DNA from: Lachnospiraceae bacterium
Lineage (GTDB): Bacteria; Bacillota; Clostridia; Lachnospirales; Lachnospiraceae
Direction: 5' to 3'
Length of the DNA: 50,464 nucleotides
NCBI GenBank assembly: GCA_017446045.1
Contig: JAFSRP010000058.1
Span: 1 to 50,464, forward strand
The notes beneath the pieces are model-generated. The model was not told the origin of the DNA and searched no databases. It worked only from the letters and a program-made list of their open reading frames with translations. Shown one piece after another: positions 28,069 to 32,970 of the stretch. Position 1 is the stretch's first letter. The number at the start of each line of letters is the position of its first letter. A program made the position numbers and the translations under genes.

Positions 28069-30060
28069 TCAGCGGTCCTCCCCGTTTTTTTCGCAGCGCT
28101 CTCCCAGGGTCTTCATTTCTTCCTCCGGACCCGCATTCTGAGGATCATTCACCGCAGCAAGACCAGACGTTTCTTCAGTATCAGTCCGGCCTTGGGATAC
28201 GGCCAGCCGCAGTCTGCGCCGATAGTACGCGCGCACGGCCAAAGCCGGCAGAAGCGCCAGTGCCAGAAGTCCGCAGGCTATAAGAAGGATCCTTTTCCTC
28301 CGATCCCGCTCCGCCTCCTTCAAAGCCAGGATCCTGGCTTCCTCTTCTTTCCTGGCTTTCTGCTCGCGCGCGTCATAGATCGGCTGCAGGACATTATTTC
28401 TCCTTTGCCCGTCAGCGATGAGGCGCTCTCCGACCCGGTCAGCCAGTTCCCGTATATTATCCGCCTCCTGCATATTTCGCAGCCCGCTGAGAGAGATCAT
28501 TTCCTGATACGGAGTCCAGACGTCCACCGCCGTCGCGCGCATATAACGTTCTACCGCAAGCGGCTCCGCATCGAAGGCCTCATCCCACAGCTCCAGTGCA
28601 TTGAGCGCAGATGTAGCATAATGCATATAATAGAAAGGTGTCTCATATATATGGGAGATCGTTGTGAAAAACCAGGGGTCCTCAGGATCTTCCCCGAAGT
28701 ATTCCCGGTGAAGCTCCTCATAGACCCCTTTCAGCTCTTCGGGGCTCATATCGGGCTTTGCATATGCCCTCCTCTCCATTTCATCGATTACACTGCCATC
28801 CAGAATGCCCACCAGCTTTTTTCCCAGCAGGAAGAGGCGGTAAGCTTCATTTTCCTCCGGACCGAACAGCTCTCCGGTGTGATGCCAGGAAAGCAGTTCC
28901 AGTCCCTGGCTGTGCAGTTCCCTGACAGAAAGATGTGTCTCCGCATACATATGGTGATCAGACGTATGATAGTCGTTATTGAAATGCCCGAATTCATGGG
29001 TCATGTTGATATAGTCTTCTTCAAGAAAGGCCTTTGGAGAAGTAAAGATAAATGCGCTGTTGGATGTATAGAGCGGCGCAGTATATCCCGACAGCATTGC
29101 CGGACTCCTGAGATACAGCCGGTTGGCTGTCAGGTCATCATAAGCTTCCATGAGATCCGGATGAACACTCCTGATCACCGGCCTGAGCGCTTCCCACTGC
29201 TGTTCCATCTCCGTCGGCGCAGAACCGTTCAGGTCGCTGAGCTGCAGGGCATCGATTGCTTCACGCACCTCCCTGTAGAGCGGCGTGATCGTATCCTTTA
29301 CAGCCCGGTGGACTTCTTCCGCCACTGCCTCCGGCATGATATCGTTCCCGTTTGCTTCCTGATACGCATAATAATCCTCATAACCGGAGATCCGTGCCAG
29401 CGCACTGCGGGCCGCGACCAGCCGGAGATAGATCTCCGCAAGCTGCTCGGGCTTCCGGTCCTTTGCTCCTATCTGTATATAGTACTGCGCGACGACATCC
29501 GTGATCCCGTTCCGCAGTACATTCACCTTTGCCGCGTCCGGCGATGATCCGTCCTCCTCTTCCGCGGGGAGCTGGGTGGTCTTTCGGATAAAAGCCTTTT
29601 CCCCCTCTGAGAGTTCTTTGGTCAGAAAATCATATTCCTTATACTGCAGAACAACGTTCAGCAGGGAGCGCACGTAATTCTCCTGATCCAGCAAGAATGT
29701 CCTGTAACTGTTGATCTGCTGGTTAAGACCGACATCCCACGGAGTCAGATAATACTGTGCCTGCAGCGCCAGCATTTTATCAGAGATCAGGTCAAAGGAT
29801 GCCACGATCTGCCGGTAATCACTGACGATCTGTTCCCTGTCCATCTCCATACCGGCAGTAAGCTCGGCATAAAACCGGTCAACGATGGCAGCCGTACCGT
29901 CCAGATCAAGATCCGACCGCTCCAGCGCATTGACAGTAGTGTCGGTATGCTCCAGGGAAGTATAGTAAGAAGCAGCGTCTGATGCCATTGACAGTAAAAG
30001 GGTCCAGACTGCTGCCCCCACTGCCAGTGCAATATGACGGATCCATTTTCCCCGTTTCAT
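28069..30060 (-). CDS. Membrane-anchored M3-type metallopeptidase
   Basis: Zinc peptidase of about 663 residues related to oligoendopeptidase F (family M3). The zinc motif is H355-E-F-G-H359, with the third ligand Glu 381 in ELHSQGLE, the usual M3 spacing. Unlike cytoplasmic PepF, it has an N-terminal hydrophobic segment (about 7-30) and a C-terminal membrane helix (about 590-615, LLIACGLLALALLPALAV) preceded by a basic/acidic coiled coil and followed by a polar tail, so the catalytic domain should sit outside the membrane. The ATG at 30060 is preferred over 30132 because GGGAGG precedes it and the shorter form starts a proper signal anchor. It is divergent from the radical SAM gene; a role in processing that system's product is possible but not shown. 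Confidence 0.87.
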   Translation of the reverse strand: MKRGKWIRHIALAVGAAVWTLLLSMASDAASYYTSLEHTDTTVNALERSDLDLDGTAAIVDRFYAELTAGMEMDREQIVSDYRQIVASFDLISDKMLALQAQYYLTPWDVGLNQQINSYRTFLLDQENYVRSLLNVVLQYKEYDFLTKELSEGEKAFIRKTTQLPAEEEDGSSPDAAKVNVLRNGITDVVAQYYIQIGAKDRKPEQLAEIYLRLVAARSALARISGYEDYYAYQEANGNDIMPEAVAEEVHRAVKDTITPLYREVREAIDALQLSDLNGSAPTEMEQQWEALRPVIRSVHPDLMEAYDDLTANRLYLRSPAMLSGYTAPLYTSNSAFIFTSPKAFLEEDYINMTHEFGHFNNDYHTSDHHMYAETHLSVRELHSQGLELLSWHHTGELFGPEENEAYRLFLLGKKLVGILDGSVIDEMERRAYAKPDMSPEELKGVYEELHREYFGEDPEDPWFFTTISHIYETPFYYMHYATSALNALELWDEAFDAEPLAVERYMRATAVDVWTPYQEMISLSGLRNMQEADNIRELADRVGERLIADGQRRNNVLQPIYDAREQKARKEEEARILALKEAERDRRKRILLIACGLLALALLPALAVRAYYRRRLRLAVSQGRTDTEETSGLAAVNDPQNAGPEEEMKTLGERCEKNGEDR

Positions 30061-30090
30061 CAAAAGATACTGCCTCCCGAATGATACTTC

Positions 30091-30096
30091 ATTATA
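30091..30096 (-). promoter_or_regulatory. -10 element for the M3-peptidase gene
   Basis: Exact TATAAT on the minus strand, about 31 bases before the chosen ATG. No convincing -35 is found 17 bases upstream, so the promoter may need an activator. The 177-base gap is shared with the divergent radical SAM promoter. Confidence 0.45.
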
Positions 30097-30159
30097 TTTT
30101 AACTGATTGTGAGAAGGGGCGCAATCCCGCATTCAGAAAACATGACTGCATATATTCAT

Positions 30160-30188
30160 TTGCAAGTCTTTGCAGTTTAATATATAGT
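30160..30188 (+). promoter_or_regulatory. Promoter of the radical SAM operon
   Basis: TTGCAA (30160-30165) and TATAGT (30183-30188) with an exact 17-base spacer, 50 bases before the radical SAM start. TTTGCA repeats nearby (30159-30163 region and 30170-30174) could be an operator half-site pair. Confidence 0.6.
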
Positions 30189-30237
30189 AAAAGAAGCTCC
30201 ATATGGATGGACTGAATAAAGAAAGGACCCGGAACAA

Positions 30238-31635
30238 ATGATCCCCGTACCAAAGCTATTCCGAAATACAAAAACCGTTAAGCGCATCGAAGCTTACATG
30301 GACACCGCCTTTCAAGATGTACTTCATACCACCCTGAACCCCGACGGCCCGGGTGTGATCCGCATCCACCTGGTCCCGCCGAAAAAAGAAGAATATGCAT
30401 TGAATCCAAGCATTGCCATCATCAACGGGACAGATATCGTGCCGGTGAATTTTGTCTGGGCTGTCATTTTGGCGGAACTGATCCGGGAGACCAACAAATA
30501 TGACGGAAAAGAACTCGGAGAAGCCGAGATCGAGCTGATCCTCGACCGCACAGCGGTCAGTGTGAAGCAGATCATCCCTGTCTTTTCCAGAAAACGCATC
30601 GAAGAGGACATCCGGACCATCTACCGGACTCTGAAACAGATCGCTTACCGTGAAGAAGTCACCACCGATGTACATTATATGAGCATCGGTGAATACGCCG
30701 AATACATGACCGCGCCCCACCGGATGGATCTCATGGTCAGCGCGATGACAAAAAACGGACAGTGGCACTGCAACCAGAAATGCATCCACTGCTACGCGGC
30801 GGGACAGGTCCTTTCCGACGAAACGGAACTGTCCACCGAAGATTGGAAAGTGATCCTCGACCGATGCCGGGCTGCCGACATTCCCCAGGTGACCTTTACC
30901 GGCGGTGAGCCTACCATGCGGGAAGATCTCTTTGAACTGATCTCCTACGCCCGCTGGTTCATTTCACGGCTCAATACCAACGGTATCAAACTCACAGCGG
31001 ATTACTGCAAAAAGCTGCATGAGGCGGAGCTGGACAGCGTTCAGATCACCTTCTACTCATGGGACCCCGCAGTGCACAACAGACTCGTGGGCGCACCGCA
31101 GTATGAGAATACGGTACAGGGGATCGAAAATGCTCTGTCGGAAAGACTGTCCGTGAGTATCAATACACCCCTCTGTACCCTGAACCGGGACTATGTGAAG
31201 ACCCTGGAATTCCTGCATGAAAAAGGCGTGATCTATGTGACCTGTTCGGGCCTGATCACGACCGGCAACGCGGCCGGAGAAGCGTCTGAACGTCTCCAGC
31301 TGACCGGCGAAGAGCTGGAACAGGTCCTGCGGGATGCCGTGGCTTACTGTCACGCGAACGGCATGGAGATAGCCTTCACATCTCCCGGATGGATCCCCCA
31401 GCATGTTTTTGAAGAGCTGAATATTCCTTCACCCTCCTGCGGCGCCTGCCTGTCGAACATGGCCATCACACCGGGAGGCAATGTCGTGCCCTGTCAGAGC
31501 TGGCTCTCTGACGATCCGCTCGGCAATATGCTTACAGATGACTGGGCGGAGATCTGGAACAGTCCGAACTGTATCGAACGCAGGAATTACTCTTCCGAGA
31601 TGACCGGCGAATGTCCGTTGAGGAGGTACTGCTGA
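30238..31635 (+). CDS. Radical SAM/SPASM enzyme, likely peptide-modifying
   Basis: 465 residues. The radical SAM cluster motif is C178-x3-C182-x2-C185 (WHCNQKCIHCYA), with FTGGEPTMRE (219-228) as the SAM-binding GGEP. The C-terminal SPASM region holds cysteines C401, C404, C419, C445, C459 and a terminal C465 around ITPGGNVVPCQSW, enough for one or two auxiliary FeS clusters. The first 150 residues lie ahead of the barrel and contain a stretch (INGTDIVPVNFVWAVILAEL onward) that may be a PqqD-like recognition element; this is a guess. Enzymes of this type install thioether or other links in ribosomal peptides. The stop shares one base with the start of the next gene, whose cysteine-rich tail is an obvious candidate substrate. 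AAAGGA is ten bases before the ATG. Confidence 0.9.
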   Translation: MIPVPKLFRNTKTVKRIEAYMDTAFQDVLHTTLNPDGPGVIRIHLVPPKKEEYALNPSIAIINGTDIVPVNFVWAVILAELIRETNKYDGKELGEAEIELILDRTAVSVKQIIPVFSRKRIEEDIRTIYRTLKQIAYREEVTTDVHYMSIGEYAEYMTAPHRMDLMVSAMTKNGQWHCNQKCIHCYAAGQVLSDETELSTEDWKVILDRCRAADIPQVTFTGGEPTMREDLFELISYARWFISRLNTNGIKLTADYCKKLHEAELDSVQITFYSWDPAVHNRLVGAPQYENTVQGIENALSERLSVSINTPLCTLNRDYVKTLEFLHEKGVIYVTCSGLITTGNAAGEASERLQLTGEELEQVLRDAVAYCHANGMEIAFTSPGWIPQHVFEELNIPSPSCGACLSNMAITPGGNVVPCQSWLSDDPLGNMLTDDWAEIWNSPNCIERRNYSSEMTGECPLRRYC

Positions 31636-32900
31636 TGAAGAGAATAACCGCAAAATCGCTCAAGATCTTTTTACTGACAGCAGTCCTGCTGTTATCTGTC
31701 CTGATACCGTCGATCAATTCCCTGGCAGCTCCGACGGACGAGATCCTTGATTTTACGGTCACGGTAGACGTCAACGAGGATGCCTCGCTGGAGATGCTCT
31801 ATCACATCGACTGGGAAGTCCTCGACGACAAAGCCTACGGTCCGCTCGAATGGATCGACCTTGGCGTACCGAACAGCTCTCATTCTGACATCAATGCGCT
31901 GACAGACACCATTGACCATATCACGGACAACGGCAGTACGCTGGCCATCTACCTTGACCGGGAATACTATGCCGGTGAGACTGTTTCTCTTGAATTCCGG
32001 ATGACCCAGGACCGGATGTATCAGATCGACAAATGGGAAGAAGGAGAGACCGAATATTCTTTTACGCCGGCGTGGTTCGACGGGATGGATGTGGATCAGC
32101 TCACGATCCGCTGGAACAGCGAAAATGCTGTCGGCTGGCAGCCGGACTGTATGATCGAAGACGGATACCTCATCTTTACTTCGGAAGTTCCCGCGGGCGG
32201 ACGATATTCGATCGCTGTACGCTATCCGAATGAAGCTTTCGGTTTTGTACCCGAACGTCAGGCAGACAGCAGCAGCGGCACGTCAATTTCGACAGACTGG
32301 ACGGGCAGCGGTACCGAAGATCCCATATTCATGATCATCGGGATCGTGTTCTTCCTTGTGATCATGATCGTTTGCTTTGCAGTACCGATCATTATAGCCG
32401 TAAAATTTTTCTCATGGCTCGCCAGCGGCGAGGGTTTCGGATCCTCCCAGGCGACAGAAAAAAAGATCACACGGACAAAGATCGAATACTACGACAACTG
32501 CCCCAGCTGCGGAGCCGCACGTAAAGAAGGCAAAGACAATTGTGAATACTGCGGACGCAGCATGATCAAGAAAAAGGAAGTCGTGGAAGAAAACCAGATC
32601 GAGAAGCCGGAAAAGTATACGAAAAACGGTACCTACCGGTATGGTGATTCTCCAAATACGTATATCCATGTGAATGTCGTGAATGTTCCGGTCATAAGTC
32701 CGCGACCCTCTTCAAACCGTTCGTCCCATTCCGGCGGTTCATCACGCCACTCATCCTGCGCATCGTCCTGCGCCTGCGCGTGTGCGTCCTCCTGTGCCTG
32801 CGCCTGTGCCTGCGCGTCATCCGGACGTGCCGGCTGCTCCGTAAAGGATTTCTTTAAGGACAGCATCCATAAGGGACGTATCAGAGTAGACAGAAAATAA
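31635..32900 (+). CDS. Membrane protein with zinc ribbon and Cys-Ala-rich C-terminal tail
   Basis: 421 residues, no named family recognised with confidence. Signal peptide (about 1-31, ending SLAAP); an extracellular beta-rich domain (about 33-215) somewhat like DUF2207 ectodomains; one membrane helix (about 231-258); a cytoplasmic zinc-ribbon-like pair C289-x2-C292 and C303-x2-C306; a polar linker; a Ser/His/Gly-rich stretch; and then nine cysteines at 375, 379, 381, 383, 387, 389, 391, 393 and 401, set in alternating Cys-Ala separated by Ser-Ser, ending GRAGCSVKDFF and a basic end. The tail would face the cytoplasm, where the coupled radical SAM enzyme could modify it. The ATG at 31635 overlaps the previous stop (TGATG) and has GAGGAGG eight bases upstream, implying matched expression. 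A terminator follows. Confidence 0.85.
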   Translation: MKRITAKSLKIFLLTAVLLLSVLIPSINSLAAPTDEILDFTVTVDVNEDASLEMLYHIDWEVLDDKAYGPLEWIDLGVPNSSHSDINALTDTIDHITDNGSTLAIYLDREYYAGETVSLEFRMTQDRMYQIDKWEEGETEYSFTPAWFDGMDVDQLTIRWNSENAVGWQPDCMIEDGYLIFTSEVPAGGRYSIAVRYPNEAFGFVPERQADSSSGTSISTDWTGSGTEDPIFMIIGIVFFLVIMIVCFAVPIIIAVKFFSWLASGEGFGSSQATEKKITRTKIEYYDNCPSCGAARKEGKDNCEYCGRSMIKKKEVVEENQIEKPEKYTKNGTYRYGDSPNTYIHVNVVNVPVISPRPSSNRSSHSGGSSRHSSCASSCACACASSCACACACASSGRAGCSVKDFFKDSIHKGRIRVDRK

Positions 32901-32927
32901 AGATCACCAGATCAGATATTAATGATC

Positions 32928-32970
32928 AACACCGGTGTCGGAAGAATAAGCCTTCCGGTGCCGGTGTTTT
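32928..32970 (+). terminator. Terminator of the radical SAM operon
   Basis: A 17-bp stem (32928-32944 with 32952-32968, including three wobble pairs) and seven-base loop are followed by TTTTGC on the plus strand, 27 bases after the Cys-tail gene. Confidence 0.8.

Follow-up and report, generated by a model that had tools for sequence, protein, structure and literature searches.

Positions 1 to 50,464 of the contig JAFSRP010000058.1 of a Lachnospiraceae bacterium (assembly GCA_017446045.1) were analysed, a stretch hereafter termed the window. Its forward strand carries two adjoining genes, which encode a radical SAM (S-adenosylmethionine) enzyme with a SPASM domain and a membrane protein that ends in a tail rich in cysteine and alanine. 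The features of the locus are as follows.

30220..30237, + strand: ribosome site AGAAAGG and spacer of the enzyme gene, whose ATG is at 30238 (sequence)
30238..31635, + strand: radical SAM/SPASM gene, 465 aa (open reading frame; Pfam Radical_SAM and SPASM above cut-off)
30322..30645, + strand: predicted RRE-like (RiPP recognition element-like) N-terminal domain, residues 29-136, strands followed by three helices (model secondary structure, fold)
30769..30792, + strand: CxxxCxxC of the SAM-binding cluster (C178, C182, C185), in 63 of 63 aligned enzymes
31438..31614, + strand: SPASM domain, with C401 and C419 in 63 of 63 aligned enzymes, C459 in 62, C445 in 56 and C404 in 54
31620..31626, + strand: ribosome site GAGGAGG of the tail gene, within the enzyme gene and 8 nt from the start (sequence)
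31635..32900, + strand: gene of the DUF2207-like membrane protein with the Cys-Ala tail, 421 aa, ATG at 31635
31728..32249, + strand: predicted extracellular beta domain, residues 32-205 (model, structure comparison)
32322..32423, + strand: predicted membrane helix, residues 230-263 (model; charge asymmetry in 57 of 64 homologues)
32499..32552, + strand: CxxC...CxxC zinc-ribbon-like stretch, C289-C306 (sequence)
32757..32837, + strand: Cys-Ala tail with nine cysteines, residues 375-401, predicted to be disordered (sequence, model)
32823..32855, + strand: end motif GRAGC-x-x-K-[DE]-F-[YF], a proposed recognition element (in 24 of 24 loci found via the enzyme)
32928..32968, + strand: terminator-like hairpin of 17 pairs (folding z -3.68)

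The TGA of the enzyme gene and the ATG of the tail gene have base 31635 in common and thus overlap by one base. Both genes, their coordinates, this overlap and the ribosome site had been described in an earlier reading of the sequence (the original prediction), and all were found to be exact when the open reading frames and the sequence were read again. The same was true for the cysteine positions it had listed. The enzyme has 14 cysteines, including C178, C182 and C185 and the six C-terminal ones at 401, 404, 419, 445, 459 and 465. The tail protein has cysteines at 172, 247, 289, 292, 303, 306, 375, 379, 381, 383, 387, 389, 391, 393 and 401, comprising the double CxxC and the nine tail cysteines. 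The signal-like N-terminus and the single membrane helix of the original prediction agree with the model, which has helices at residues 2-26 (the hydrophobic N-terminus) and 230-263 (the one internal membrane helix).

The original prediction also held that promoter and terminator make the pair a closed two-gene unit. The downstream half of this claim held up, since the terminator-like hairpin was recovered by folding, although it was absent from the output of a scan for consensus terminators. The promoter half did not. The candidate at 30160-30188 matches the consensus in 9 of 12 positions, and four promoter-like sites were found where 3.2 were expected, so that the signal was no stronger than in shuffled sequence.

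Characteristics of the enzyme and the tail

Both Pfam domains of the window enzyme score well above their cut-offs (Radical_SAM 70.4 vs 29.5 bits; SPASM 33.7 vs 21.5 bits). The sactipeptide maturase SkfB was the first match in a profile search against solved structures, in line with the kinship to such maturases proposed earlier. The enzyme model had its best structural matches in SkfB (Z 26.8) and SuiB, with EpeE scoring well below SkfB. The alignments to SkfB and SuiB start at residues 41 and 29-31, respectively, within the predicted RRE-like domain. The 25 Pfam families listed for the enzyme, out of 75, did not include PqqD; a remote relative has a PqqD match below the cut-off (E 0.012). 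None of the NCBIfam radical SAM maturase models reached its cut-off among the 25 listed of 59 matched.

The conservation counts given for the enzyme derive from a set of 112 sequences thinned to 93, from which 62 were aligned together with the window protein. For the tail protein, 86 sequences were thinned to 82, and the window protein was aligned with 63 of them. The rows of both alignments are loci fetched by the tail pattern, and the invariant tail columns of the tail-protein alignment are therefore partly due to construction. K404 lay outside the fetch pattern.

The tail itself was compared over 104 distinct sequences. Tails have from 4 to 11 cysteines, with 7 to 10 in 90 of the 104. Ala follows 703 of 748 non-terminal cysteines and Val follows 37, counts to which the selection by tail pattern contributes about three Cys-Ala pairs per tail. 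The cysteines are usually linked by A, ASS or AHSS, and the last one is preceded by AGGGRAG, ASSGRAG or AGSGRAG. The cysteine codons are mixed (TGT 438, TGC 414), which argues for conservation at the level of the protein and not for a DNA microsatellite. When loci were located via the enzyme and not via the tail, the neighbouring protein ended in CACACA-x-x-GRAGC-x-x-K-[DE]-F-[YF] in 24 of 24. An origin of the tail by chance or as a microsatellite was ruled out by these two observations together. Judged from the sequences, a varying number of repeats followed by an unchanging end motif suggests a modified core with a recognition element placed behind it. The zinc-ribbon-like CxxC pair of the window protein was found in none of the shorter relatives listed.

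Pairing of enzyme and tail gene across genomes

Among 299 genomes of the family, the enzyme was found in 24, including the genome of the window (E 1e-60), and each of the 24 had an adjoining open reading frame with a Cys-Ala tail. A search with the tail protein (E 1e-6) returned the same 24 genomes and no other, leaving 275 with neither gene. One of the latter, G117, belongs to the same genus and is 97% complete. The pair therefore comes and goes together within the family.

The reverse approach started from the tail. DNA encoding CACACA-x-x-GRAGC was sought in the contigs of 84,980 species, each represented by one genome, which gave at least 119 stretches with at least 121 tail reading frames; neighbouring enzymes were called by blastp at E 1e-10. 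Among the matches listed, 97 of 121 tail reading frames adjoin an enzyme on the same strand, with the enzyme upstream in 93 and downstream in 4. A cultured strain, Gemmiger formicilis ATCC 27749 (L042, L147), is among the carriers. Another 22 of the 121 end at the upstream edge of the fetched stretch. A search of the whole genomes found the enzyme for 19 of these 22 (4 of 4 and 15 of 18), directly beside the tail gene in 15, while in the other 4 (L220, L225, L232 and L234) a contig ends there. In the genomes without an enzyme match (L060, L114 and L119) the tail gene extends past the end of its contig on the side where the enzyme would lie.

The tail gene L032 is a second, divergent one in a genome with a single enzyme, next to which it lies. 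Two tail genes with one enzyme, in tandem or divergent, were observed in L110, G300 (L032/L146) and G1032 (L224), which suggests from gene content that a single enzyme can serve several tail proteins.

L054 was the only tail reading frame that lacked an enzyme among the matches listed, and it starts inside the ectodomain. This orphan looks like a remnant or an assembly join. It occupies L054:3631-4446, has no N-terminal end and lies directly behind a large gene with a frame of 1156 codons.

A looser tail pattern without the end motif (CACACACA) matched in 12 of 392 genomes of the order, whereas the reversed control matched in none. Ten of the 12 have real Cys-Ala tails, each adjoining an enzyme. 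The matches in L171 and L173 were dismissed because they are not in the Cys-Ala reading frame. Within these 392 genomes we thus did not find the tail to be common without the enzyme. The original prediction had named as its test whether the tail always occurs with this radical SAM subfamily, and the outcome was strongly positive in both directions of search; the exceptions are the truncated orphan L054 and the three genomes whose contigs break off on the enzyme side of the tail gene.

The pairing also extends to remote enzymes. The window enzyme found 12 other genomes among 398 of the phylum, 11 with an adjoining Cys-repeat tail (truncated inside the tail in one case) and another that was unreadable. 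The remote enzyme L160 added five genomes, all with Cys-repeat tails, of which two have GGCT ends and three have CHSA repeats. The pairing was found to hold across enzyme clades at 36-40% identity, and in an enzyme tree of 97 rows the enzymes group by tail type (8 label changes vs a mean of 27.8 after shuffling). The link of the CHSA enzymes is uncertain because their branch is very long (4.56), and it may be remote or convergent.

Several observations were made on these remote loci. The CHSA proteins (L249:2-1177, L250:2754-3926 and L251:2757-3929) are membrane proteins with CHSA tandem repeats and a CVSGGAR end. In each case the gene for a remote SPASM enzyme comes immediately next, and their repeat code differs from that of the window tail. 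A third gene follows the enzyme in all three (L249:2496-3479, L250:443-1477 and L251:446-1285) and encodes a membrane protein that is similar by eye; the L249 copy has only a Pfam Cpta_toxin match below the cut-off (E 0.0064). The enzyme match of L238 (G316:C17:2639-3856) contains one in-frame TAG, representing a sequencing error, decay or recoding. The contigs of L058 and L090 are labelled Eggerthellaceae (Actinomycetota) and were placed among Lachnospiraceae and other Bacillota in the enzyme tree, either because the unit was transferred or because the contigs were misbinned.

No further gene was found to belong to the unit. The pair itself set aside, the top three clusters of reading frames of 100 aa or more occur in 16, 15 and 9 of the 119 loci examined, and those of 16 and 15 loci resemble, by eye, antisense shadow reading frames of the pair. 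Among small reading frames (20-99 aa) close to the pair, none was shared by more than 4 of 97 loci, which ruled out a hidden short precursor peptide. Small reading frames with five or more cysteines numbered 66 in 45 loci, and none forms a larger cluster. Genes outside the pair were not conserved between loci. Only two genes recur widely, and the loci thus have no conserved exporter or protease and no other conserved precursor peptide.

Relation to DUF2207 proteins and to known maturases

The ectodomain of the tail protein is, judged by profile comparison, remotely related to DUF2207 (PF09972; hhalign probability 96.7%, E 3.8e-10), although the window protein falls below the Pfam cut-off of that family (13.4 vs 24.4 bits). 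In the same comparison the group with GGCT ends reached 97.3%, while the CHSA group reached only 85.6% over a partial match. Pfam gave no DUF2207 match for the remotest of the tail proteins (L253, L254, L249-L251 and L238), and a search of the window's own genome with the DUF2207 model gave none at E 0.001. No NCBIfam match was found for the tail protein at E 0.1, yet the tail is frequent, with at least 119 stretches in a survey of one genome per species.

Ordinary DUF2207 genes of the phylum (n = 28) were examined for comparison. Their C-terminal tail is rich in glycine in 26 of 26 readable cases, the loci L284 (wrong reading frame) and L285 (cut) having been left out of the tail reading, and at none of the 28 loci was the enzyme found within about 1.5 kb. 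DUF2207 proteins such as SMU.243 of S. mutans have an extracellular N-terminal part, a membrane helix and an intracellular low-complexity end, and S. mutans that has lost a DUF2207 protein is altered in stress tolerance and biofilm (PMC10457818). The window protein shares this layout but differs in having a Cys-repeat tail in place of the glycine-rich one and a radical SAM partner. The cytoplasmic position of the tail, as originally proposed, is supported by the charge rule, which applies in 57 of 64 homologues, and by the published DUF2207 topology (PMC10457818).

The window enzyme resembles the sactipeptide maturases SkfB and AlbA and the ranthipeptide maturases CteB and PapB in combining a radical SAM domain, a SPASM/twitch domain and a predicted N-terminal RRE-like domain, and in having a Cys-rich substrate candidate encoded next door. 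In those systems the substrate is a short peptide, whereas here it would be a membrane protein some 300-500 aa long (421 aa in the window), with the proposed modified part at the C-terminus and no N-terminal leader. An exporter or protease gene is common, though not universal, in sactipeptide and ranthipeptide clusters; here neither recurs. The ACGX system (TIGR04340 enzyme) also uses a radical SAM/SPASM enzyme and is named for a repeat with Cys, but its target is a peptide and not a membrane protein. With the TIGR04340 model, whose cut-off is 400 bits, the remote relative L160 reaches 63.7. The substrates of QhpD and anSME are not known to be membrane-protein tails of cysteine repeats. QhpD, a radical SAM enzyme that installs thioethers in a protein, and anSME, which makes formylglycine in sulfatases, are similar to the present case in that the modified proteins stay proteins (PMC8326336).

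Each part of the pair comes from a known superfamily. What appears to be new is a dedicated SPASM enzyme together with a membrane protein with a Cys-repeat cytosolic tail, a combination unmatched above cut-off among the NCBIfam and Pfam matches listed. No description of the pair was found in the literature searched, which lay outside subscription journals and preprints.

Proposed modification of the tail

We favour, with moderate confidence, a two-gene maturation unit in which the RRE-SPASM enzyme modifies the cytosolic Cys-repeat tail, probably by way of thioethers. The first part of this, that the tail is the substrate of the enzyme, is highly probable given the pairing; thioether cross-links as the chemistry are a reasonable but less secure expectation, and the end motif is probably the docking site. 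The first gene would provide the RRE-SPASM enzyme and the second its substrate, a membrane-anchored DUF2207-like protein with its C-terminal tail in the cytosol. Binding would probably involve the end motif GRAGC-x-x-K-[DE]-F of the tail and the predicted RRE-like domain of the enzyme, and the enzyme would abstract hydrogens from residues adjoining the cysteines, mostly Ala as the likely acceptor. For SkfB, the acceptor can be Ala, with the hydrogen taken from C-alpha (PMC8326336). Closure of several sulfur-to-carbon bridges would turn the disordered tail into a compact, redox-inert, cross-linked structure. The product would not be exported but would remain the cytosolic end of the membrane protein, where ordinary DUF2207 proteins have their glycine-rich tail.

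Other readings of the pair were weighed against this. The enzyme could epimerise alternate Ala (or Cys), so that L- and D-residues alternate along the strand and the thiols stay free. This is unlikely in view of the Z of EpeE, well below that of SkfB, and of tail units such as CASS, CAHSS and CHSA that have no alternation. It is equally improbable that the tail is a metal or iron-sulfur sensor on which the enzyme acts secondarily, for example by inserting or using a metal site. The dense CxC spacing is metallothionein-like and some members have the extra zinc-ribbon-like CxxC pair, but a sensor would leave unexplained both why the tail is so strictly tied to a SPASM enzyme with a predicted RRE-like domain and why Ala is preferred after each Cys. 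Oxidation of the tail cysteines to formylglycine, as by anSME, is more doubtful still; the anSME target motif is CxPxR or CxAxR, which is absent from the tail by inspection, and many tandem targets are unlike a sulfatase. Adjacency alone is heritable, but that the genes are mere co-inherited neighbours and the enzyme has its substrate elsewhere is just as implausible given both gene orders among the matches listed, the divergent duplicates, the pairing across clades at 36-40% identity and the lack of conservation outside the pair.

Beyond modification of the tail by the RRE-SPASM enzyme at this locus, we give even odds to a wider proposal: an unnamed, widespread class of membrane proteins of anaerobic gut bacteria, whose cytosolic tails are made into multi-bridged thioether structures in place by dedicated RRE-SPASM enzymes. 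Enzyme clades would read different repeat codes, namely (CA)n plus CASS ending in GRAGC, (CA)n ending in GAGC, (CA)n ending in GGCT and possibly (CHSA)n. RiPP-like (ribosomally synthesised and post-translationally modified peptide-like) chemistry would then build a component of the cell envelope, with the recognition element behind the core and not in front of it. Most of what is known of radical SAM chemistry on peptides concerns short ones, and the pair, if this is true, would move it into cell-envelope biology. It would also offer a handle for functional work on the DUF2207 superfamily and natural repeat substrates (CA, CASS and CHSA) for making multi-bridged peptides.

Two minor observations concern the ectodomain and the flanks. 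The ectodomain model (window 31728-32249) resembles an oligosaccharyltransferase chain, which we take to be Ost1/ribophorin I, and M1-type aminopeptidases, which may hint at how the DUF2207 superfamily is folded. The pair is flanked by genes of the opposite strand that encode, according to Pfam, an M3-peptidase-like protein and a glutamate dehydrogenase. The M3-peptidase-like gene (28069-30132, - strand) is divergent from the pair, and its product has hydrophobic segments at the N- and C-terminal ends as judged by eye.
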